DNA from: Symbiodinium natans
Lineage: Eukaryota > Sar > Dinophyceae > Suessiales > Symbiodiniaceae
Assembly (NCBI GenBank): GCA_905221605.1
Contig: CAJNDS010002717.1
Coordinates: forward strand, 62,001 to 126,000
Direction: 5' to 3'
Length of the DNA: 64,000 nucleotides
How positions within the stretch are numbered: the stretch's first letter is position 1; every line of letters begins with the position of its first letter. Below are positions 25,225-46,860 of this stretch, piece after piece. The position numbers and the translations under genes were made by a program. The notes under the pieces were generated by a model. That model did not search any database, was not told the origin of the DNA, and worked only from the letters and a program-made list of their open reading frames with translations.

Positions 25225-25765
25225 TGAAATCCGCCGACCCCCTTTGTCGGCGTCAAGAAGCTGGACTCGTACCTTTCCCGCTGGACCCGCTAGTGCCCTT
25301 CCCCATGGACCCGCGCGGCTTGCTTCCTACCTGGATGGAACCACGCGTGTTGTAACCCACCCTTCCCCCCCTTGTCAGCGGTCAAGCAGATGGAAGCACA
25401 CGTTTTGTGTTGGCTGAACCCTACCCCGACCCCTACGCAACCCCCCCACCCCCCCCCCCACAACCCCCCAACAACCCCCCACCCCCCGACCTGCCACTGC
25501 CCCCCCCCCCCCCCCCCGCCAGAAACCACACGTTTTGACCCCCCCCCCCCCCCCCCCCCCACCCCCCCCCCACACCCCCCCCCACCCCCCCCCCCACCCC
25601 CCCCCCCGCCAACCCCCCCCCCAACCCCCCCCACCCCCTACCTGCCTCCCCCCCCTTCCCTCCTCTCATTAGCGGGCCCACCCCTTTTTCGCGCCCCCCC
25701 CCACCCACCCCTGCCCCCTTCCCTACCCCCTTCCCTACCCCGCCTGACACCCAACTCCTCCTAAA
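25225..25765. repeat. Extreme C-rich / G-quadruplex tract
   Basis: The plus strand from about 25434 to 25760 is almost entirely C, with runs of up to about 19 broken by A, T or G (poly-G on the minus strand). Just before it, two diverged copies of CCCCCTTTGTCGGCGTCAAGAAG-like sequence (about 25229-25265 and 25369-25400) and two CACACGTTTTG boxes suggest the tract arose within a degenerate tandem repeat. Long Pro- or Gly-rich frames across it are artefacts of composition. Confidence 0.9.
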
Positions 25766-26002: not shown

Positions 26003-27818
26003 TCACGAGTCGTAAAGCTGACAAGCTTGTGCCCACTGTCCTGCTGACTCTTTAAAGAGTAGGCTCTGTTCGGGACCAGAGACGGCGAGCAGAGAGCCAG
26101 CAGTGGACCAGGTCAATCGAAATGTCTCTTCGCCCACGCTCCACGAACTTTGGACACTCCAGGGTTGCCCCTCCATGTCCTGCCACCAAATTTGAACAAG
26201 CCCATCCTCGAAGCACACTGCAATGGAGCTGGAAGGTATGCCCAGATTGGGCCTGATCAGGGAGGCAGCACTCAACCACCCCAACCCACACCCCAAAACC
26301 CCAAATTGCTTTGAAAAGCCCAACTGACGGGGTCTTGGCTGGCCTTGGGCTGTCGCAAGCCTTTGACACTGTAACGGAAGCTTGAGAATAACACCCTAAA
26401 CCCTAAACCCTACACCCGAAACCCTAAACCCCAAGCCCCAAACCCTCAACTTAAACCCCAAGCCCGAAACCCTAAACCCTGGATCTAATTCAAGGTGGGG
26501 AGGGGGTCGTATAGAAGTTTAAAGAATTGGAAGCGGGGTTCGACAAGCAGTCGCCGGGCCCTTCATCGGCTCAACGGCCGCGAGCCTGCGGCCCTGAGAC
26601 CCGCTTGGCACTTCTCCTGGGCCCCTCTTAACACCAAAAGCGAATACTGCGGTGCATCACGGATGACCTCGCCCGGCCCATCAAGAATGACCCCCCCACA
26701 CATGCAAGCTCAACCATTATTTCCTTTCAAATCCACTCAGATGATTTCTACCATCCATACTGGACTGGGGGCTCCAAGCTCTAGGGTCCACTTGCAGGCA
26801 CGTTTTACAGCAGGATTCCCTAGCGACAAGGCTCCCCAAAAAGAAGCCCTGCAAATGCAATCGGCTCTGCTGGACCAGGCCTCCAAGCAACGTCGCGGAC
26901 AGGGGGCCCGGGCCCCCTTTCGACCAACTCATGCTGCAGAGACCAGGTGTCACTCTTCTCATCTCCTCGCCAGATCCGGACAGACCGGTCGCTCGACGCA
27001 GACACGAGCCGCAGCGGAGCTCGCGCGGCTGCTCGGGCTGCTGCTGGCCCGGCTGCGAGCGTGGCCGGGCTCGCTGCTGGTGCCCAGCAGAAGCCAACCA
27101 ACCCTGCACTGTGTGCCTCCATGGGCTTTGACAGCCACTGCTCTCCGGCTGGGAGGACCGCGCTGGCAGAAACCTCCTTGCGTGTTAGGAAACAGATGTC
27201 GGGACTCTCGCTGCCCGCGACGGCCAGCATGAGCCCGTACTCAGCAGGTCGAAAACTCGCCGCAACGACGGACCCTCTCACAGTGAGCCGGTGCACTGAA
27301 CTCCACCTCGGACGATTTGAGAGACTTTCACGGGAATGCACAATCATGTTTTCTTACGCAACCACACCAGTCCGACCGGTCCTCTCCTCTGAGCGCTCGG
27401 CTCACCCTGCTCTCGCCAGAGCACGATGCTTCCATCAGCTGCGCCGCTCACCAGTTGAACCTGCGGTACGGTCTTGCCAAAACAGGTCTGAGGTCGCTCA
27501 TGGTCGCTCCCTACCGGCCCCATGCTGTCAAAGCAGCGGGGAGGGTCTTCTTTGGAGCCCAGCCCACGACCAACGCAGCAGCCTGGTGAGCTGGCAACCT
27601 CAGCTGGCTGCAGGTTTTGTCAAATGCCGACACATGCCGAGATGCGCCGAGCACGGCAATGAAGCTCCGGACTGGGCCACCATCTGATGGCTCTCTGTGC
27701 ACCAAATCCTGACAACCTGCGGCCACTGCAAGCCACTGCAAGCGGGGAAGAGGCAGTTCAATGAATTGAGCAGTGCGTCATAGTGTGTCTGCTTCGAATG
27801 GATGAAAGAAGCCGACAT
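26003..27818 (-). CDS. SEC13: SEC13 beta-propeller coat protein, multi-exon
   Basis: SEC13 is a six-bladed WD40 protein of the COPII vesicle coat and the nuclear pore outer ring. Pieces align with family members in order. 27670-27818 is MSASFIHSKQTHYDALLNSL, then VVRIW (blade 1). About 27560-27600 reads LPAHQAAALVVGWAP. 27406-27460 (CAG|G acceptor; donor GTGAGC) reads VQLVSGAADGSIVLWREQ. 26881-27316 reads RPAEYGLMLAVAG, EAHSAGLVGFCWAPA, RLVSASSDRSVRIW and VRDVAW. The last exon, 26003-26252, reads NLGIPSSSIAVCFEDGLVQI, then LTWSTAGSLLAVSG to the stop. Joining 26881 to 26252 recreates VRDVAWRPNLGIPSSS, a hallmark of SEC13, across a 628-nt GC-AG intron. Boundaries among the first exons are approximate. 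An Ala-rich insert (about AAGPAAARAAARA) replaces the usual blade-4 loop. Confidence 0.92.
26253..26880 (-). other. 628-nt GC-AG intron of SEC13 holding telomere-like repeats
   Basis: Minus strand: exon ...GCTTGGAG, intron GCCTGGTCC...CTGATCAG, exon GCCCAATCTGG. The protein join is exact. The intron contains an island of mutated telomere units (26393-26481, CCCTAAA, CCCGAAA, CCCCAAG variants on the plus strand). Confidence 0.8.
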
Positions 27819-29129: not shown

Positions 29130-29242
29130 ATGGATCAAACGAAATCCGAGAGCACCCAATGGATGACAAAATCTCATCAGGCGGCCTCTCGTGTGTGACA
29201 GCCCACACGTGGGAGAATGCGATCGCAGCTTCGTAAACAACA
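29130..29242 (-). CDS. Likely exon, product unknown
   Basis: A GTGGCAG acceptor at 29243-29249 opens a protein-like frame including VVYEAAIAFSHVWAVTHERP and PDEILSSIGCSRISFDP. An upstream segment, VLDPAKLPKPLDQPTRLC (about 29270-29330), may be the previous exon. No domain was recognised. Confidence 0.35.
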
Positions 29243-29460
29243 CTGCCACAAACAGAAAACAGAGCAAGACAATTGAACATAGCCTCGTAGGTTGGTCAAG
29301 TGGTTTCGGCAACTTCGCCGGATCAAGAACCTGAAAGGGCAGATGCCACCCAACTAGCGCGCAACCAGTGAGCACCAGCCAGACGCCAACTTAGGCCGGC
29401 AAGGTCCCCTTCAAGAATCCTTAAAGCCCTTGCAAGTCAGCAAAGCCTAGACGGCATCGT

Positions 29461-29769
29461 CATGCAGCCGTGCTGGTGAAGCCGCACGGGCAATGCTGTG
29501 ACCCTGCTGAGGTTGCCGCACCATCAATGATCTGTGTTGCAGCTTTCAAGTCTCTCTGCTCAATAGCCTCCGAGCATTGCGCCGGCAACGTTTGCCCCTT
29601 TGAGCCACCGATGGACTACAGCTTCATGGTTTCCAAGTACCCTTCAAAGCATAAAGATCCACACTGGCTAGAGGAGGGCAAGTCATGCACAGCGCCATTC
29701 TGGCATGAAGTATGGGCGAAGCAAGCACAAGAAGCGGCAGTGGATCAGATGCCATCTGTGTATTTATAG
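29461..29769 (+). CDS. Candidate plus-strand exon, unknown
   Basis: The plus strand is open for about 100 codons with protein-like content, including DYSFMVSKYPSKHKDPHWLE and APFWHEVWAKQAQEAAVDQM, before a stop at 29769. It would oppose the flanking minus-strand genes. The minus strand here has no comparably convincing frame. It could be a small gene or exon, or chance. Confidence 0.3.
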   Translation, partial: HAAVLVKPHGQCCDPAEVAAPSMICVAAFKSLCSIASEHCAGNVCPFEPPMDYSFMVSKYPSKHKDPHWLEEGKSCTAPFWHEVWAKQAQEAAVDQMPSVYL

Positions 29770-29984
29770 GCAGTGCAAGGCTGTTTCTGAAAGTTACCGG
29801 CAAACCATGGACTTGCATCTTCGGGCTATCCCACCCTGGCACTAGTCCAGTATCTTGCCATTGTACTACTTCTTATTCCCCAGCTATGTTATTCGCTACA
29901 TTACCCCTTACTTCCCCAGCCTCCGTTGCCTCGAGAGCGTACTGGCTGTCCATGTTCATGTTTAGCACCGCCTGCCCGAGGTGA

Positions 29985-32900
29985 CAGATTTCTGTCTTCG
30001 CGACCTTTCAATTTCTTCATCCACTGGCTAGCAGAAGCCAAGGCCCGGACGCTTTGAAGGAAGTTCCAAGTGTGCGTTGCTTCTGGATTCAGCACCAAAG
30101 ATGACCTTGCACAAGAAGCACGTAGATCCGGACAACAGTTTTCGGCGGAGTGGAAGCACTGAGGCACATACAGGTACAAACGCGCAGCATCCTTGTGCTT
30201 GCCTGTGAGCCGGAGTCGTGCACGTAGCCACGCGAAGCATCAAGCAGGCAGGGAAGGCCCAAATTAGCGTGCGCGATGGCCATGTTCGACCTCAAATCAC
30301 TCAGATGATCACCATGGAACGAGGCGAAACCCGGCTGCCCCGCGGTCACCAAGCTGAAGGTGCCGGGCCAGCTCCGAGCATAATTGGGCTTCAGCTCCAA
30401 TCCTTGATGGTAGGCAACCTGGGCATGATTGGGGCTTCACGGATTTAGGCATTGGGAGTTTATTCAAACAGCTTTTGGAAGGAGGCTTACAGGAACGCAT
30501 TTTGGGGCTTGTGGCGTTCAGGATGCAGGAAGCATGCTCAAGGCCCTGACCACGGCTTGCTCACTCTTTCCCGAATTGGCCAAGGTTGCACCCAGCTTGT
30601 TCCAAACCTAAGTATCAAGCGGTGGCATGAAGCCAAGCTAGGCTAGGACTGCCCCACCCCTGCCCCGTTTTGCTAATGTACGTGAACTCACGTCCCCAGG
30701 GCAATCGCTGTGGGATCGTTCGGTCGCAGCCGGCAAGCAGTGGCAAGAGCCTGATGAAACTCATGACACGAGCACTGGTGACAGGACCGATTGGTGGTAC
30801 AAAAAAAAGAAGGCCGTGCCTGAACAGCGGCGGGGAAGTCTCCTCAAGACCAAAGGTCTTTTTTACAGCTGGCTTCTGCACAGCAACTATCGGGAACCAT
30901 TTTCGATTTTTTCGTTTTAAGGCTGAATGTCGAGTCTTAGGCACTGGGTCGCAATGGCCAAAGTTGAAATACCCTTGTTGACTCCTAGCACATGGCATTA
31001 CGTGCTGCCTGGAGTCTGTTGATGTTTTCCAAGACACCCAATGCCACAAACACATCGGCATCATGAGGATTGGCCTGAGCTCCCCAGCTGCAAGGAGACG
31101 GGTTCGAGCGCAAGTCGTTTAGCTAAGACTTCTCATGGCTACTGATGGCCTGCGCAGCTTGCTGAAAGAGTTCTGTGACCTGTCGGCCTGGGAACAACAT
31201 TGCAAGTGTTGTTCCATGTCGGCTAGATTTGCTGCGCAGCTGGCTGCTCTCTGAAGTGAAATGCTGAAGATGCAGCGCCACGCGTCGTACTCATAGTCCG
31301 GCGGCGCTTCAACACGGTCTGCAATGGCCTGCGTGGCTTCGAAAGGTTTCGCACAACAAGCTGGTAGCAGACGTTTCGGATTGCCTCCCCGTCCTGCCAA
31401 AGCGGCAAGATTGCAAACGCGCGCCTGGTGCTCCTCGTGGTTTTCAAGCCAGGTCCGCAAGTAGCGCCTCAATGTCCAAGCGGCTCTCAGAATGACAAGA
31501 GCATATTGAAGAGCACGTCGCGGACACTTGCTTCAACTAAATCACGTCTTTGGCCGAGAGATGAGCAGAGCGGGGAGCTGGTCCAGCTCATTTGTACAGC
31601 TGACGCCTCCGAGTCTCACGAGATGCGTTCTTTTCATCGCGCGCTGCCCTGAGGTGCCTGCCTAAGGCAAGCAAGCTGTCTAAGTTGTAGGGGTCGACCT
31701 GCCAATGCTTGCGCAGACTTGCCAGTGCCGACGCAGAGGATGAAACAGATGCAAGTCAGAAAGTCAGATGAGCATGCCCACACCGTCGCGAAGCGGATAC
31801 ATAAGAGGATTGTGGAAGGATGCGGGGGTGCCTCGTGACCTCTCCTGAGGCATTGGATTGCCTCAGCACGTGCTTGAAGCGGAGAGGATATCTTCATGCC
31901 CAAGACCGGCAGCCTCTATGTCTTGGTCAAGCTCGGCATAGAGTTGGCCCAGCCTAGGTCAAGCTGCATGTAGAGATAGATATAGATAGATATATATATA
32001 TATATATGATGTAGATATATATATATACATACATGTAATTATAAAAAAATTATATATATGTATATATATATATATAAAGAGAAGATCCCATGAGCAGTCA
32101 GGTACAGTCCGTTGCTCAACCCAGAGCCAAGGGCATTCTCCAGCCTTCGGAACTTTCCGGATTTCGCTGGACCTGTACACTGTTCACCGCAACCAGCTGA
32201 GAATGTACTGAAAAAAAGAAGAAGCTGCTTGCTGTGCATTCAGGCTGCATTGCAACAGTACAGTGTGCTGCATCAGGCACCTCAGACTCCAGGCACAGAA
32301 GTGCTTCTCGGTCTCGACCTGGCAACGTATGCGAAAGCTACGGCTGCAAAATGAAACGGGCAGTTGGACAGGCGCTTGCAAGATGTTGGCAAGTTCCGCA
32401 AACTGCTCTCTGGCACATGGTGCTGATTAGCCAGAATTGCATTTGTTCTGACAATGTGACGTCATAAAGATGGACGGACGACGCAGTAGCAGCGAAAATC
32501 TGTCGTGATTGCTGCACACTGGAAGGCAACTTCAGCCGTTGAATCATTAAGCTTCTAGGATCACTTCTTTAATTGCACGTAAGTAAACTCCATTGGTAGA
32601 TCATGATGGTGCGCCACCGAAAAACTTAAGTCGTTCCTGACTGTAGCGAACACTGGGTGTTGGGCCCCCTCCCGTTCTGACTTCGGGGTTCGGGGCCGAC
32701 ATGGGCTCTTCCCAAGCTCACACTTCTTACCGTCTCCTTGCTGCAAATGTGCTAGCCCTCTGCTACACCTCTTTAGTTCTTGTGTGTGCATGCTCGCACA
32801 GCTGGTGGGCACCTTCTCTGATGAGCCGGATAGCTTCTGCAAGCGGGTCCGAGATTTCACCTTGGCAAGGCGGCAATCCATGCAATCATCTGCAGCCTCT

Positions 32901-33205
32901 GTTGATCTGTGATCAGTGACTGCATGCGACGGCCTTCCAAATTTAAAGCAATTGAAAAGCCCGGGCGCGGAAAGGATTCTCTTCCGCAAATTTGTACTCC
33001 TTCGCCCGGCTCATCGCAGCCTGAAGCAAGCATTGGCCACCAAAGGATCCAAAAGCGCATCGCTTCGCAAGAAGTCTTGTTGGCCCCCAGCCAGGTCCAT
33101 CGTCGACGCATCGAAGCCGTCCAAGCCTCTCGCTCTGACACGGAACTTCCCGAAAACGAACATCGCACACATCGTACAGCAGCATTTCGAAACACATCGC
33201 AACAT
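29985..33205 (-). CDS. PEX5: PEX5, peroxisomal targeting-signal-1 receptor (TPR), multi-exon
   Basis: PEX5 binds C-terminal SKL-type signals in the cytosol and delivers enzymes to peroxisomes. Segments match the family in order. About 32943-33015 reads AKEYKFAEENPFRARA (human Y.FEEENP), the block before the TPRs. About 32767-32880 reads GEISDPLAEAIRLIREGAHQ. About 31380-31490 reads LRRYLRTWLENHEEHQ (family L..WL). 31123-31182 reads VTELFQQAAQAIS (V.ELFL.A). About 30987-31081 reads NPHDADVFVALGVLENINRL (D.DVq.gLGVLfNl). 30368-30415 reads AYHQGLELKPNYARSW and 30258-30292 RSNMAIAHANLG (ALelkPgYvRsRyNlgIsc.NLG). About 29985-30105 reads LVLNPEATHTWNFLQSVRAL, the C-terminal helix. An upstream exon, 33011-33120 (DASTMDLAGGQQDFLRSDAL), probably belongs to the unstructured N-terminus. 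WxxxF/Y docking motifs were not located. Exon ends are approximate. Confidence 0.87.
31967..32080. repeat. AT-rich microsatellite inside the PEX5 region
   Basis: (TA)n, GATA and poly-A stretches over about 110 bases. It falls between exons assigned to PEX5, so it probably lies in an intron. Confidence 0.8.
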
Positions 33206-33298
33206 ATCTCAAGATTTCTCAACGACTTCAGTCTCTGCCTTGCATCATCTGCTCCAAGAGATGATCTGCCTGGCAGGCTCTCAGACTTCTTGACTCGT

Positions 33299-33819
33299 TC
33301 AGAAAGAACTCCGGATGCGGTCCCACAGGCTGTTCGAAAAGGATACTAGTAGCTCAAGTGGCATCGCGTGGGTTTGGGACAGGGATGCTCGCCTCCTCCC
33401 TGCCGAGGGCCTCCTGAGTGACTGCACCGAGTACGAACCCAAAAAGACATCTTCACTGGAGCCCACGGGTTGAAATCGGTCCTGGAGAGCCTCCCGGTGA
33501 TTCGCCATTCCGAGGGCGAGGTCACCCTCGAAGTCCTCCATGCCCAACGGGTGGTCCAAGCCCACCCGGTTGAGGACGGCCTCCATGCCTCAACAGATAT
33601 CATAAGACCACGCAAGGTTGAGGCCTTGGGCAGGGCACCTGCCTGCAGGGCCAGCCGAAGCTTTCCACATCGTATCCTGCATGCTCACAAAGTTCACAGG
33701 CGACTGGGCCCCTATTCTTTGCCTGTCTTCATGTAACAAGCGAGGTGCACCAGGTGAGCTCTATCGTTGTCTGTCACCGTGGCCACATCAGTGTCGTACA
33801 GAGCTTCCCAGTCCTCGAT
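33299..33819 (-). CDS. Unidentified protein, three frames in series
   Basis: Minus-strand segments follow closely: 33712-33819 (DWEALYDTDVATVTDNDRAH, then LVHLACYMKTG), 33590-33706 (SPVNFVSMQDTMWKASAGPA, then LNLAWSYDI) and 33299-33586 (MEAVLNRVGLDHPLGMEDFE, then REALQDRFQPVGSSEDVFLG). The frame changes between them happen within fewer than 20 bases, too short for ordinary introns, so small indels, a decayed copy or wrong boundaries must be considered. They could be the N-terminal part of PEX5 or a separate gene just upstream; I found no family match. Confidence 0.45.
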
Positions 33820-33842
33820 TCACGTGTCGCACTCACGTTTAG

Positions 33843-34560
33843 AACGCCTTCAGCTTAGGCTCAGCTTGGATGTTCACTGTGCCAGGTTCTGCCAGCATTC
33901 TGCCCGCTTTACCCCATTTTTTACCTCTGCGCCTCTCAGACACACAGATTACGAGCACTGAATGAGTCAAGAATCACTAACACCAACCAACGAATCCATG
34001 TGTGAATATCACCTGAGGCACCGACTACCTGGTTTCCATCTCTGTCCACGACGGTGTTCTCTTTAAACTGAAGGTCGCCCTGGCAGAGCCGGCAACTGGC
34101 AGACTGAGGGTTTAGGGTTTAGGGTTTAGGGTTTAGGGTTTAGGGTTTAGGGTTTAGGGTTTAGGGCCCCTGTTGCAGGAGCCTTGCTCACCAAGTCAAT
34201 GAAGTTCACGAACTTCGAGTTGGCGAGCTTGGTGTTCCCACTGTTTCGGAGCCTCCAGACGGCAGCGTAATACACGTGTTGGTAGTAACTCATGAAGATC
34301 AGCAACAAAAAGCAGGCAATGCATACACACTTGCGGGTATATATACGCATATAAATATACCTATATATATATGTATGTTATGAAAACATCGTGCTCATGG
34401 CAGGGGGCAGGACTCTGAGACGCGCGTGCTGCTGTTGATAGAGATGGCAGCAGCTTACGCCAAGCAACATCTCCACCATTTGCGCAGCTTGCCCCAGGTC
34501 TGCTTCTTCAACCTTTTCAGCATAAGCCGCGAGTTTTTCAGGACGACGCGCCAGCTTAGC
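33843..34560 (-). CDS. Unidentified protein with a CxxC exon
   Basis: Four minus-strand segments. The first is about 34447-34560: ARRPEKLAAYAEKVEEADLG, then QAAQMVEMLLG, ending at a GTAAGC donor. 34192-34262 reads VWRLRNSGNTKLANSKFVNF, then IDL, ending exactly at GTGAGC. 34029-34103 is exactly 25 codons, starts after CTCAG, reads SASCRLCQGDLQFKENTVVD and ends at GTAGTC. The last, about 33843-33895, ends TVNIQAEPKLKAF and stop. The CRLCQGDLQF segment looks like half of a small zinc-binding knuckle. The donors make the exon structure unusually clear. The intron between the second and third exons is mostly telomere repeat. Product unknown. Confidence 0.6.
34104..34191 (-). other. 88-nt intron built mostly of telomere repeat
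   Basis: The plus strand carries eight perfect TTTAGGG units at 34111-34166. On the minus (coding) strand the intron reads GTGAGC..., about 25 unique bases, eight CCCTAAA units, and a last mutated unit CCCTCAG that supplies the acceptor. Without splicing the frame hits TAA inside the array, while splicing joins two protein-like exons in phase 0. Confidence 0.65.
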
Positions 34561-34719
34561 ACTGGCGCTGTTGCACAACTACGGCCCTACAGTCCCATGT
34601 GGACTTCTGAAGGGACAAGATGAAAGTTGCCGGCTGGTTGCTGCGTGTATGTGATCGTATGTGTATAAGAATCCTCCACATGTGCCATCAAGCATTCAGC
34701 GACGACTCTTCATGGTAGG

Positions 34720-37700
34720 CTATTCGAGGCACCACGGCTTGCGGCAAGTGCCTGCGGGGCCTCTGCCAGGGTCTCGATGGGCGCAGCCTCTGAACCCGAA
34801 TGTCCGCAAAATTGTTGAAATCTGCGCAGTGTCTTTCCCGGTTCTCCAGAATTCTCCGGCCTCCTTGGAAGCAACATCTGTGCTCACAGCAGGCGCCGAG
34901 GCCATCATTGCCGGCGCCGGCATCAAGGAGGGCCCGGCTTGGTGTGGTGCCTGGGCCGGAGCATCAGGTCGGCTGAGATGCCTGGAACCGATGTGAATAT
35001 TCTGCTGCGCTAATTTTGCCCGTCTCAGCGCTCTGCCCGGAGCATTGGGCCCATACCCATGCCCATCATGGGGCCCATCATGGGCGCCATCATCGGACCC
35101 ATCATAGGCCCAACTGGGCCGCTGCTGGACCTCTCGAGTATCAACAATGTTCGCACAAAAGTATCACGTGATAATACGTGATACAGTGATACAAGTGATA
35201 CAGGGACCCCTGGCATCCCTTTCTGGGGAGTCGGCATCGCCGTGCTGGATGAAGCTGGGCCAGCTCCTATGCTCTTGTGAAAACAACGCGAGGAACGCGA
35301 AATTGCAGCCTGACAGAACTTTGAAGAGCCTGCAGGTCCGGCCATCTGCGCCTTGCCAAGAGCAGTGGCAAACAAAGCTGCGAATGCTCTGATGTAGACC
35401 ACGCCAACAGTGGAACCGGGCACAGACATGCGTGGAGCCTGTTGCCACGCGCTCTCCATGGCAGGAGGCGCCGTACCCTGCCTCAGCCGAGAACACGTCA
35501 GGAGCCTCTTGCTGCTTACTGCATGCATGCAGAAGCCGATTGTTAAGCAACGGCGGCAAGTTAAACAGCATTTTGAAAGTTCCGTTCAACAAGGACATAA
35601 ACATCCCATGGTTGCATCGCCAACTTCGCAAGAACCATGTGCTCTTGGGCCAGACAATGCCTGATCTTCGGATTGGTATTTCATGGTCGGTTGGCAAATG
35701 TTTGCTCAGACGTCGATGCAGCAACGTCTGGCTGTACAGGGATGGTTGAGGGTGGGTTTCCAACTTGTTTTAGCTTCAGTCGTCATTCTCGATAGGATTG
35801 GCATTGCACAGTACAGTAGTGCTTTGTCATTTCTCGACAGTCTTTGCAGCCATTTCGGCAGTCTATTCCCGTAGAGCTCTATGAACGAAAGCTTGGACTC
35901 ATTGTGACTGCTTGAAGACTAAAGCTGCGTCCGCTTGCTGTGGTTTGAGCTTCTTCATTACAGTTGTGGCGGCCAGTCAGAGGCCGCAGTTCAACCCGCT
36001 TGTGCTCTGCAGGTGCTGCTGGCGATGGTGGAGGGGAGGCGCGGTGGGAAGCCATTAAGGCCAAACATCGCCCGCTGTTGGCGTGGACAAGGAGACAAGG
36101 ACCGCTGAGGAGAAGGGCGAGGCAAGCGCAGCTGAGGCAAACGGAGTCTCGGATGCTTTGCCCTCAAGCCTCCGCCATCTGCCCTGGGCCCAGGCCGCGC
36201 AAGCTCGGCGAAGAGATGGGTTGATGGATGAGTGACCTGTGGCCAGTGACCTTTCATATCTGGACGTTTGGGTTGTCAGAACAGGCACCCCCCTGCCCTG
36301 GGACCCCTGGGCCCAGAACTCTCATCGGACTGCCTTGGAGGCGTTTATGGCATCCAAATGCTGAGCCCCCCCCTGCGAGAGCCGCGTTGGGCCAGGCCGA
36401 GGCGGGTCGCGTAGCGTTTCAAAATTAGACTTCAAGTTTGTTCCATCCTCTACGCGGCCCCTAACTGTTGATTCTGGGTGAACGTGGGATGAGGCACATT
36501 AAGCCGGCAAAACCAGAACGAGCTCCAGCCCTGGTGTCTCGGCAAGGTCTCCATGCTGTTGATGTTCCACGAGATACAGGTACCAAGGCCGCCACACAGC
36601 AAACCTTGCGTGATCAGCTGCGACGCACACACACACACACACACTAACTAACTACACACAGCAGACATCAGCGGATGGCAGCTCACTTCGTCGGGTTTCA
36701 CTTTTCCATATCTTCCATTAATTTTCATATCTTCCACTAATTTTCATCCGAGCCGCTCTGATGCCCAGTCTGGCCCTACGGGCCCTACAGGCCCCATCAT
36801 TGGTGGCCGGAATGCCTGTGGTCCGTGATGGGCCTTGGGGTGTTGCGATTCGCGCACCTTTACGGCAGTTTACGATGCAAAAAAGGCGGACATGAAAACC
36901 TCAGCCTCCCGCAGCAAACTCTTGGGCCCAGTCAGGTCCTGCGACTCTGCGCACCAAGCTACACTTTGATTGCTTGTTGCTCTTAGAGTTCTATAGCAAG
37001 TGCTTCTAGACCTACTGTAGACCCCTGTTCATGACGCCCTTACCTGCATGGACAGGCATCGCAGGCCCAACCATAGGCCTGGCTTTAAAGAAAGGTCAGG
37101 GCATGAAGCCTTGTTGCCCAATAGCACCGTGTAGTGACGGCGTATGTTCTCAGGCACGTTTCTGAGGTACGTGCCCGTCGAAGAGACCGGGCCTTCACGC
37201 TCCAAGACTCCAGGCAATGACCCGTTTAACAATGACGTTTGAACGTAGTACTTGTATTTGATGGAAGTTAACAGGCCCTGAATGTCCCTGACTCGCATCA
37301 GCCCCCGACTCTGCACCCAGCCCAGGGCCCTCCATGTGCTGTCTGAGCTGGTCCGACCTTGGGTCGCGAAGTCCGAGGACCGGCAGGACTCGGTGGATTC
37401 TCTGTTCTGGACGCCACAGCTGCGCACAGCATCTGGTTTTCTAAGCATCCGGCATCGTCGCACCAGGACCCGGGCCCATCCTTGGCCTGCTTCCAAGGTT
37501 CGAGCTCAGAAGGTCGCATGAAAGTTGCCTTAATTACATACACAGACTGTTTTGTACATCGGTCAGTATAAAGCCGAAAACAGAATGTGAACCCGTGCCG
37601 GCAGTACCCACGCATGCCCGGGCCGGCTTCTCGCCAGGCGTTCTCCAGCTCCTGAGAGTGGAGCTGATCAGTTTCCAGGGCTTCTGACACAGAGACATAT

Positions 37701-37963
37701 TTACCAACAGGGACTTGTGGCTTGAGGCTGTGCGCGCGGCGCTCGGGCCCATCATCGGATCCATCATCTGGCCTCCGAGGGCACCAAGCCTGACAGCATG
37801 ACACCGCGTGCAGCTCCCGATGTCGACTGCCCCTCATGCGATTGAAGCTGAGTTCCAAGCGGCGGCCTCGCACATCAAACAAGAAGGCACTTGCCAACAG
37901 TTGACAGAAGTTGGGCCCAGCGCCTGATCCCAGACAGGTAGCCTTCTCGCATCTGCTGTGCAT
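34720..37963 (-). CDS. Gly/Pro/Met-rich protein, multi-exon, product unknown
   Basis: The sequence PMMG and its variants recur in separated minus-strand segments: about 37735-37770 (GGQMMDPMMGPSAA), about 36763-36815 (PPMMGPVGPVGPDWASERL, then stop) and 35026-35125 (GPMMGPMMAPMMGPMMGMGM, ending MLRAER and stop). Between them lie protein-like exons without low complexity: about 37500-37725 (VSVSEALETDQLHSQELENA, then HGFTFCFRLYTDR) and about 37081-37300 (RVRDIQGLLTSIKYKYYVQT, then PENIRRHYTVLLGN). A Pro/Ala/Met-rich segment follows at 34720-34990. One gene or two is unclear. No domain was recognised; the repeats suggest a flexible scaffold. Confidence 0.45.
36611..36745. repeat. Microsatellite and short tandem duplication
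   Basis: A (CA)n run occupies about 36624-36644. At 36703-36747 the unit CATATCTTCCANTAATTTTCAT is repeated twice in tandem. The region between PMMG-gene segments shows no exon here. Confidence 0.75.
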
Positions 37964-38050
37964 GATGCTTGTCCTTAGTCCAATTCTGTCATCTTACTGA
38001 ATGAGGTTTGGAGACGACAAGCCCTGCAAGGCTGCTTTCATATCCATATC

Positions 38051-39213
38051 TCAGGCTGCGGAGTGCTGCGAATTTTTGGGGGCCCCGTTGCTAGGCCCAG
38101 CTGGGCATACCTTGGCATCCTCGCAGCTGTGAGATGCTGCGAGTCTATATTTGGGCCCACCGGATTTCACCTGGGTTCCTTGATGCTTCGCATGCACCCG
38201 AAGCCATGAAGCTTCTGAGAAAATTCTGAGCACGAAGCACCCTAAACCCGAAACCCCAAACCCCGCCAGTGCATCTTCACTGAGCTGGGGGACATATTGG
38301 GGCGCTCTTGAGCCCTAAGGTTGCGGCTGCGGTAAGCGAGTCGAAGGCCCGGGACAGCGGGTTTCCCGCAAGGCCATCGACGCTGCAGCCTCAGAAGACA
38401 GCAAAAAGGGGAGGGGAAGGTGAGGGTTTAGGGTTTAGAGTTTAGTTTACTAGTTTAGGGTTTAGGGTTTTTGGGGGGGGGGGGGTGGAGGTGAGGGGAG
38501 GGGTGTTGCGGCGTTCGGCATTTTAGGACTTGAAATGCCAGCTCCACACTGACCCACTGCTCTAAGGCGAGGCGCTGTCGGGCTTAAAGAAAGGCCTCAT
38601 GGCACCTCGAGGGAGTGCACAAGAGTCCAGTCACACTCTCCAGTCACACTCTGATCGTTGCGATGTCAGGTTGCTCAAGTGCCAGTTCGCTCCGATTTCT
38701 GTGCCCTGGACGTCAATGAGGCACAGAAGTGGTCGGTATGAACTTCCTCCTACGAAGTAGTGGAAGCGAAGAGTAACAATTGTTGAATATGTGTGGTGGT
38801 GTGGAAGTTTGGAGTTATCAATGCTTGCTTCACATGGCTGCGCACATGATTTCAAAAGCAGCCTGGAGCCGGCACGATTACAGAGAAACTGCGGCAGTGG
38901 CTGACCACATGTACTAGTAGCAGCCTCCTGCCTCCGGGCACATAGACATAGCAAGTACTTGCCGTGCCGCCAGGACTACACTAGGTGAGGGTGGTGCTGA
39001 TTCAGTCGCTCCAAGATGCTGCAAGCAAAGCTCAGTCTGTGCAAGCCTAGTGCTGCGAGTTCGAAAGCTGCCCTGCGTGTGATTGCTAGGGTCAGAAAAT
39101 AAATCTGAAAAGGGAGCATCTTCACCGAACATGTTTCTGCGCTTGAGCGCAAACGGGACGCCATCCTTCAATGAAGCAAATGATTTCCACCCCTGCCAGT
39201 CGGTTGTGCCCAC
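38051..39213 (-). CDS. Unidentified protein(s), three exon-like segments
   Basis: Protein-like minus-strand frames: 38914-39213 (TDWQGWKSFASLKDGVPFAL, then NMFGEDAPFSDLFSDPSNH), 38631-38815 (TYSTIVTLRFHYFVGGSSYR, then LIDVQGTEIGANWHLSNL) and 38095-38230 (FSEASWLRVHAKHQGTQ next to a GTGAAA donor-like site). Between the last two lies a G-rich stretch with telomere-like units (38420-38490). No family was recognised. Confidence 0.4.
38424..38490. repeat. TTTAGGG-like island and G run
   Basis: Four to five TTTAGGG or mutated units are followed by a run of about 14 G with one interruption and further GGGG clusters. It is the same unit type as the other islands. Confidence 0.8.
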
Positions 39214-43119: not shown

Positions 43120-46100
43120 GGTTCATCTGCCGCCTAGGCCCTTGGCACGTAAGTCCCAGCAGGCGAGCATCATGAGCATCAGCCGCCCAGGCCTTTGCCC
43201 TTTGGCACGTAAAGCCCGTGTGCTTGCCCAGGGGGCGAGCATCATGAGCATCAGCCGCCAAGGCTCTTTGGGACGTAAAGCCCAGAGCCCACTATAGCCC
43301 TTTGGCACGTAAAGCCCAGCAGGCTTGGCACATAGAGCCCAGAAGGCCAGAAGGCAAGCATCATGAGTATCAGCCGCCCAGGCTCTTTGGGACGTAAAGC
43401 CCAGCAGGAGAGAATCATGAGCATCAGCTGCCCATGCCGTTCGGGACATAAAGCCCTTTTGGCATGTAAAGCCCAGCAGGCGAGCACCAGGCGAGCATCA
43501 TGAGCATCAGCCGCTTAGGCTTTTGCCACAAAAGCCCAGCAGGCGAGCATTATGACACATCAGCCGCCCAGGCCCTTGGCACTTATGTGCTTGGCACATA
43601 GAGCCCAGGGGGCGAGCATCATGAGCATCAGCCGCTCAGGCCCTTGGCACGTAAAGCCCAGAAGCCGAGCATCATGGGCATCAGCCGCCAGGGTCTCGGC
43701 ACTTGGAGCCCAGGAGGCGAGCATCATGAGCATCAGCCGCCCTGGCCCTTCGGACGTAAAGCCCAGGGGGCGAGCATCATCAGCATCAGCCGCCCAGGCC
43801 CTTAGCACTTCGAGCCCAGGAGGCGAGCATCATGAGCATCAGCCGCTTAGGCCCTTGGCACGGAAAGCCCACAGGCGAGCATCATGACCATCAGGCGCCC
43901 AGGCCTCTGCCCTTTGGTAAAGCCCAGCAGGCTTGGCACGAGCCCAGCAGGCGAGCATCATGAGCATCAGCCGCCCTGGCCCTTAGGCCCTTCGCCCTTT
44001 GGCACGTAAAGCCCATGTGCTTGGCACATAGAGCCCAGGGGGCGAGCATCATGAGCATCAGCCGCTTAGGCCCTTGCCATGTAAAGCCGAGCAGGCAAGC
44101 ATCATGAGCATCGCCGCCCAGGCCCTTGGCACTTAGAGCCTAGCAGGCGAGCATCATGAGCATCAGACGCCCAGGCCCTTGGAACATAAAGCCCAGCAGG
44201 CGAGCATTATGACACATCAGCCGCCCAGGCCCGTGGCACGTGAAGCCAGGAGGCGAGCATCATGAGCATCAGCCGCCCAGGCCCTTGGCACTTAGAGCCC
44301 ATCATGAGCATCAGCCGCTTAGGCCCAGCAGGCGGGCATCATGAGCATCAGCCGCCCAGGCCCTTAGCACTTCGAGGCAAGCAGGCGAGCATCATGAGCA
44401 TCAGCCGCCCAGGCCCTTGGCACGTGAAGCCCAGCAGGCGAGCATCATGAGCATCAGCCGCTTAGGCCCTTTGCCCTTTGGTAAAGCCCAGCAGGCGAGC
44501 ATCATGAACATCAGCCGCCCAGGCCCTTTGCCCTTTGGTAAAGCCCAGCAGGCTTGGCACATAGAGCCCAGCAGGCGAGCATCATGAGCATCAGCCGCCC
44601 TGGCCCTTCGGACGTAAAGCCCAGGGGGCGAGCATCATGAGCATCAGCCGCGTAGGCCCTTGGCACGTGAAGCCCAGCAGGCGAGCATCATGAGCATCAG
44701 CCGCCCAGGCCCTTGGCACTTAGAGCCCAGGCGGGCATCATGAGCATCAGCCGCCCAGGCCCTTAGCACTTCGAGGCAAGCAGGCGAGCATCATGAGCAT
44801 CAGCCGCCCCAGCAGGCGAGCATCATGAGCATCAGCCGCTTAGGCCCTTTGCCCTTTGGTAAAGCCCAGCAGGCGAGCATCATGAACATCAGCCGCCCAG
44901 GCCCTTTGCCCTTTGGTAAAGCCCAGCAGGCTTGGCACATAGAGCCCAGCAGGCGAGCATCATGAGCATCAGCCGCCCTGGCCCTTCGGACGTAAAGCCC
45001 AGGGGGCGAGCATCATGAGCATCAGCCGCCCAGGCCCTTAGCACTTCGAGGCCAGCAGGCGAGCATCATGAGCATTAGCCGCGTAGGCCCTTGGCACGTG
45101 AAGCCCAGCAGGCGAGCATCGTGAGCATCAGCCGCTTAGGTCCTTGTCATGTGAAGCCCAGCTGGCGAGCATCATGAGCATCAGCCGCTTAGGCCCTTGG
45201 CACGTCATGAACATCAGCCGCCCAGGCCCTTTGCCCTTTGGTAAAGCCCAGAAGGCTTTGGCACATAAAGCCCAGCAGGCGAGCATCATGAGCATCAGCC
45301 GCCCTGGCCCTTCGGCCCTTCGCCCTTGGCACGTAAAGCCCATGTGCTTGGCACATAGAGCCCAGCAGGGGAGCATCATGAGCATCAGCCGCTTAGACCC
45401 TTGCCACGTAAAGCCGAGCAGGAGAGCATCATGAGCATCAGCCGCCCGGGCCCTTGGCACTTAGAGCCCAGCAGGCGAGCATCATGAGCATCAGCCGCCC
45501 TGCCCCTTCGGCCCTTCGCCCTTTGGCACGCAAAGCCCATGTGCTTGGCACATAGAGCACAGGGGGCGAGCATCATGAGCATCAGCCGCCCTGGCCCTTC
45601 GGACGTTAAAGCCCAGGGGGCGAGCATCATGAGCATCAGCCGCCCAGGCCCTTAGCACTTCGAGGCCAGCAGGCGAGCATCATGAGCATCAGCCGCGTAG
45701 GCCCTTGGCACGTGAAGCCCAGCAGGCGAGCATCATGACCATCAGCCGCCCAGGCCTCTGCCCTTTGGTAAAGCCCAGCAGGCCTGGCACACAGAGCCCA
45801 GCAGGCGAGCATCATGAGCATCAGCCGCTTAGGCCCTTGACACGTAAGCATCATGAGCATCAGCCGCCCAGGCCCTTGGCACATAGAGCCCAGCAGGCGA
45901 GCATCATGAGCATCAGCCGCCCTTTGGCACGCCCATGTGCTTGGCACATAGAGCCCAGGGGGCGAGCATCATGAGCATCAGCCGCCCAGGCCCTTAGCAC
46001 TTCGAGGCCAGCAGGGGGGCATCATGAGCATCACCGCCCAGGCCCTCAGCACTTCGAGGCCAGCAGGCGAGCATCGTGAGGGCCCTTAGCACTTCGAGGC

Positions 46101-46860
46101 CAGCAGGCGAGCATCATGAGCATCACCGCCCAGGCCCTTAGAGGCCAGCAGGCGAGCATCGTGAGCATCAGCCGCCCTGGCCCTTCGGACGTAAAGCCCA
46201 GGGGGCGAGCATCATGAGCATCAGCCGCGTAGGCCCTTGGCACGTGAAGCCCAGCAGGCGAGCATCATGAGCATCAGCCGCTTATAGGTCCTTGGCACGT
46301 GAAGCCCAGCTGGCGAGCATCATGAGCATCAGCCGCTTAGGCCCTTGGCACGTCATGAACATCAGCCGCCCAGGCCCTTAGCCCTTTGGTAGCCCAGAAG
46401 GCTTGGCACATAAAGCCCAGCAGGCGAGCATCATGAGCATCAGCCGCCCTGGCCCTTCGGCCCTTCGCCCTTTGGCACGTAAAGCCCATGTGCTTGGCAC
46501 TTCGAGGCCAGCAGGCGAGCATCATGAGCATCAGCCGCTTAGGCCCTTGCCACGTCAAGCCGAGCAGGCGAGCATCATGAGCATCAGCCGCCCGGGCCCT
46601 TGGCACTTAGAGCCCAGCAGGCGAGCATCATGAGCATCAGCCGCCCTGGCTCTTCGGCCCTTCGCCCTTTGGCACGCAAAGCCCATGTGCTTGAGCACAT
46701 ATATCGAACCCAGCAGGCTCAGCTGCCCAGGCCCATGCCACGCCACGTGAGCCCACAGGCGAGCATCATGAGCATCAGCCACCCAGGCCCTTGGCACAGA
46801 AAGCCCCAGGCACGCAAAGCCCAGCAGACGAAAATCAGGCGAGCATCATGTTACGTGTTG
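43120..46860. repeat. Large minisatellite, about 60 copies of a 50-60 bp unit
   Basis: The core GCGAGCATCATGAGCATCAG, followed by CCGCC and a variable linker (CAGGCCCTTGGCACGTAAAGCCCAGCAG type), is repeated about 60 times by eye, with linker variants of different length. Larger blocks are themselves duplicated: about 44460-44650 recurs near 44835-45025, and about 45130-45240 recurs near 46280-46390. Because the unit has few stops, long frames appear on both strands (for example MSISRPGP and ADAHDARLLG phrases). These are translations of the repeat, not evidence of genes. Confidence 0.95.

Follow-up and report, generated by a model that had tools for sequence, protein, structure and literature searches.

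Short arrays of telomeric repeats at internal sites, including introns, have been described in mammals, where such interstitial telomeric sequences (ITSs) are reported to be inserted in one step at breaks with the involvement of telomerase (PMC2246262, PMC7215372). As far as the available text of the human survey goes, no short ITS lies in an exon and 31% lie in introns, a distribution compatible with random insertion, and stop codons are given as the reason (PMC7215372). In dinoflagellates, the telomere unit is TTTAGGG and introner elements are widespread, according to the accessible part of PMC11453091. The introns of Symbiodinium natans carry GC (58%), GT (23.6%) or GA (18.4%) donors and 97.1% of the acceptors are AGG (values from the available portion of PMC10666404), GC donors and AG|G acceptors being the majority class. 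Here we describe a short ITS that lies within an intron of the S. natans PEX5 gene. Like the mammalian ITSs, it is a short telomeric array at an internal site; unlike these, it is of the seven-base TTTAGGG type, lies in a dinoflagellate host and makes up over half the length of a 103-nt intron that is known only with the array. This intron shares with ordinary Symbiodiniaceae introns its GC donor, its AG followed by G and its length of ~100 nt, and differs from these by the perfect telomere array that it contains and by the absence of a CTNA motif at position +9. Introner elements are likewise small introns in dinoflagellate genes; however, the end repeats of the intron described here fall within the range seen in shuffled sequences and in the other introns of the gene. 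No case of an intron carrying a telomere array was found among the titles and abstract beginnings of the open-licence PMC literature on telomeric repeats, introns, intron gain and dinoflagellates.

The window, i.e., the whole 64-kb stretch of DNA that was analysed, contains on its minus strand a gene that, judged by its sequence, is PEX5, the predicted peroxisomal targeting signal 1 (PTS1) receptor for peroxisome import. Local spliced alignment of the S. natans PEX5 protein (P0001) with the window yielded 746 identical residues out of 746 aligned (38600-29155) and a coding part (29155..38600) of 51 exons and 50 introns. When the last residue was forced into the alignment, 746 of the 747 residues matched (38600-29152, 51 exons); this final residue was left unplaced and may lie past one more intron. 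The window therefore belongs to S. natans or to a strain nearly identical to it. Donor costs were set equal for GT, GC and GA, and AG|G acceptors were not favoured. The deposited protein is an annotation, and S. natans gene models have in general been guided by RNA-Seq and Iso-Seq, as stated in the available text of PMC8045281. A search with the joined exon translations retained 36 PEX5-type proteins at E ≤ 1 among 181 candidates, the best being S. natans PEX5 and the weakest having an E value of 1.3e-17. The query of this search, which also served for the joint scoring described below, was the first joined model, with one Leu too many and one Val missing at neighbouring junctions. The sources of these 36 proteins include NCBI, JGI, MMETSP and EukProt; five carry transcriptome labels (P0005, P0007, P0014, P0022 from MMETSP and P0031 from EukProt), one S. 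microadriaticum entry is labelled PPT1 by its source and another is just 294 aa long. TPR families match P0001 and place a TPR domain at its C-terminus, as in PEX5, and solved PEX5 chains of the PDB also match this protein (1fch, 2j9q and others; best value 9.5e-47). Short pieces of PEX5 exons gave nothing near the cut-off in Pfam and no match, or weak matches only, in the PDB (including PEX21 at E 0.42); one short-piece Pfam query returned weak beta-propeller matches, which came from the WD40 gene described below. Exon 17 of PEX5 bears a 12-nt tandem repeat (35061-35105) that codes for a GPMMGPMM-type stretch.

Intron 21 of PEX5 (34080..34182, minus strand) is a 103-nt GC-AG intron in phase 0, which separates exon 21 (34183..34252), ending with ...FVNFIDLVSK, from exon 22 (34026..34079; GDLQFKENTVVDRDGNQV), which has 54 nt or 18 codons. 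Its acceptor, TGCCAG (34080..34085), is followed by G. When the local part of each protein was aligned separately with the window, all 36 homologues placed the intron at 34182-34080 with GC-AG|G boundaries, and the motif [VI]SK[GR][DE][LY] at the junction was uninterrupted in 36 of 36, the five transcriptome-labelled proteins included; because these comparisons share one genomic sequence and the proteins are kin to one another, they testify separately to the protein sequence, but not to splicing in this strain. Splicing is thus predicted to join Val-Ser-Lys to Gly-Asp-Leu and to treat intron 21 like any normal dinoflagellate intron of the GC-AG|G class. The earlier note had instead placed a GT-AG intron at 34191-34104. 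The GTGAGC and CAG letters on which it relied are present, but the boundaries are wrong: GTG AGC at 34191 is coding and provides the Val-Ser codons of the VSK motif within exon 21, and the CAG of the mutated unit CCCTCAG (34104..34106), followed by T, is an intronic decoy located 24 nt before the true end. Similarly, a phase-compatible stretch of 75 nt (34103-34029), taken for a following exon of 25 codons, can be read, but the real exon is exon 22 (34079-34026). The joint so obtained would replace Val-Ser-Lys by eight intron-encoded residues that are found in none of the 36 homologues, and it was outscored by the 34183/34079 joint against every one of them. The repeat had also been credited with the acceptor and the pyrimidine tail; the intron, however, ends at 34080 (TGCCAG|GG), 27 nt beyond the last repeat base. 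The aligned proteins therefore contradict the proposal of a repeat that provides its own splice site.

With neutral settings, the 50 PEX5 introns have 36 GC, 12 GT and 2 GA donors and AG|G acceptors in all cases, in line with the S. natans values given in the available portion of PMC10666404. The length of intron 21 is close to the median of these introns (98.5 nt; range 52-1114). The sole AG|G wholly within it, at 34171, lies directly past the donor and upstream of the array, and a role in RNA structure was rejected, the fold z-score being -0.67. Two further observations concern the modelled introns in general. Of the 56 introns modelled on the minus strand between 38575 and 26253 (50 in PEX5 and 6 in the WD40 gene), 11 have a CTNA that starts precisely at position +9, for ~0.9 expected per position, and six have CCTYA at +8; CTNA at +9, which intron 21 does not have, is a positioned donor-proximal motif that may represent an extended donor or else a branch site in an unusual place, and is not mentioned in the accessible part of PMC5029490, a paper from a literature search on dinoflagellate branch points. 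In-register direct repeats over the boundaries of the 50 PEX5 introns average 3.06 nt, compared to 2.83 nt with donors and acceptors re-paired (p about 0.03), which hints weakly at target-site duplication.

The array itself (34107..34166) reads (CCCTAAA)8 followed by CCCT on the sense strand. It consists of 60 nt of perfect period 7 (8.6 units) and occupies 58% of intron 21 (60/103 nt). The eight perfect TTTAGGG units of the earlier note are present, on the plus strand, unspliced readthrough does hit stops within the array, and a telomere repeat does fill over half of a spliceosomal intron, here in the conserved gene PEX5. Made of perfect telomere units at an internal site, the array is an ITS. 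The telomere repeat is real and far beyond chance: the window has 19 occurrences of the 14-mer TTTAGGG dimer with at most one mismatch, versus a mean of 0.04 over 100 shuffles. Three properties of these units are relevant to their location: (i) the sense strand of the array is devoid of G, so that it can form neither a GT, GC or GA donor nor an AG acceptor, which would leave splicing untouched; (ii) in either orientation, telomere units have stop codons in all three frames; and (iii) in the G-rich orientation each unit, TTTAG|GG, can be read as an AG|G acceptor.

The array is not the only telomere-like tract of the region. Fourteen mostly degenerate clusters, each comprising four or more telomeric 6-mers, are spread over the 64 kb on both strands. 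Ten are outside the two modelled genes and the four others are all intronic: besides intron 21, these are a degenerate CCCTAAA tract in PEX5 intron 1 (38423..38470 in 38575-38390, minus strand), in the same orientation as in intron 21, a degenerate TTTAGGG-sense tract in PEX5 intron 2 (38239..38263 in 38327-37974, minus strand), in the opposite orientation, and a degenerate TTTAGGG-sense tract (26393..26480, minus strand) in a 628-nt intron (26880-26253) of a gene for a WD40-repeat protein. The latter gene was modelled from the protein of a relative, P0038 (274 identical columns out of 312), which was preferred to P0039, as P0039 aligned poorly outside the intron 26880-26253 and implied two implausibly short introns. 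Single telomeric 6-mers in PEX5 are intronic in 98 cases and exonic in 2. The intronic share is 76% for PEX5, 53% for the WD40 gene and about 72% for the two combined, so that the intronic location of four clusters out of four is weak evidence. On the sense strand two of the four are C-rich and two are G-rich, and this 2:2 orientation gives the idea of splice neutrality no support from strand bias. Only the tract of intron 21 is unbroken among the four, which suggests that it arose last or has undergone the latest expansion. Elsewhere in the window we noted a long degenerate tandem array (43590-46654) with a unit of ~53 nt (CTTGGCACGTAAAGCCCAGGAGGCGAGCATCATGAGCATCAGCCGCCCAGGCC) and higher-order periods, and a long C-rich low-complexity tract (25438-25655). 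ARAGORN and Rfam (gathering threshold) detected nothing within the 64 kb; searches of plasmids gave no DNA match and one chance Streptomyces protein match (E 0.8), and no relative was found among viral contigs and prokaryote genome contigs.

Taken together, we consider it highly probable that PEX5 intron 21 is a normally spliced GC-AG|G intron, more than half of which is a short ITS that was acquired or enlarged after the intron had formed. Most likely, repair of a break, of the telomerase type or by end joining, or slippage at a later time brought the array into this intron or expanded it there; insertion during break repair is plausible by analogy with mammals. Once there, it would persist because it is tolerated in an intron, unlike in coding exons, where the stops in three frames in either orientation would work against its survival. 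The telomere tract of intron 21 is real but ordinary, and so is the intron.

Could the array have created the intron? Telomeric DNA might have been inserted at a break in the PEX5 coding sequence and have become an intron together with a few flanking bases, as mammalian ITSs have been documented to enter at breaks (PMC2246262, PMC7215372, in the portions available). The array accounts for 58% of the intron, and removing it leaves 43 nt, the shortest of the other 49 introns having 52 nt; it is therefore not obvious that the array was cleanly inserted into an intron that already worked. Replacement, expansion or a joint origin of array and intron may apply instead, and this remainder keeps an intron birth alive, at a low probability. 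Such a birth is nevertheless not favoured: neither splice site falls within the array and both resemble those of the other introns, the insert would have to bring 16 + 27 non-telomeric bases around the array, and telomere-like tracts are also present in introns of greater length and throughout the window, where no intron birth is needed. The broader proposal, in which telomere addition or capture at a PEX5 break created the intron and G-less arrays of C-rich sense, being splice-silent, would possibly be a recurrent raw material for introns in dinoflagellates, is very improbable; if true, it would mean intron gain seeded by telomeric DNA.

There is a slender chance that intron 21 is an introner element, i.e., a copy of a non-autonomous transposon that holds telomere units by chance. 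Introners are widespread in dinoflagellates, as reported in the accessible part of PMC11453091, and are recognised, within 30 bases of the ends of the intron, by 8- to 20-nt inverted repeats together with direct repeats that are 3-5 nt long (criteria as quoted in the available portion of PMC10666404). In intron 21, CCTGCAAC and GTTGCCGG form inverted arms of 8 nt with a single mismatch, and a repeat of 3 nt spans the boundaries. However, arms of 8 nt were matched by shuffled ends in 15.7% of 1000 trials, inverted repeats of 8-9 nt occur in 7 of the 45 introns of at least 60 nt (intron 21 included), at 2 + 1 nt the boundary repeat is close to the gene mean of 3.06 nt, and the fold z-score of -0.67 also speaks against this origin. 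Telo-boxes are plant elements, and it is more doubtful still that the intronic AAACCCTAA units act as a telo-box-like element that binds telomere-repeat factors and regulates PEX5: the array is perfect compared to the degenerate tracts nearby, but youth explains this perfection equally well. Finally, a GT-AG intron at 34191-34104 whose acceptor is the mutated last telomere unit is hardly credible: its GTGAGC and CCCTCAG letters exist and the next 75 nt stay open, but, in addition to the residues, junctions and scores reported above, its CAG|T has no following G and falls outside the AG|G class of 50/50 PEX5 introns and of 97.1% of S. natans introns (PMC10666404, in the portion available).

With intron 21 read as an existing, normally spliced intron that carries a short ITS, an attractive but wrong splice model is corrected, and GT-AG intuition is shown to fail in dinoflagellates. 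The locus also adds a clear intronic telomere tract within a conserved gene.
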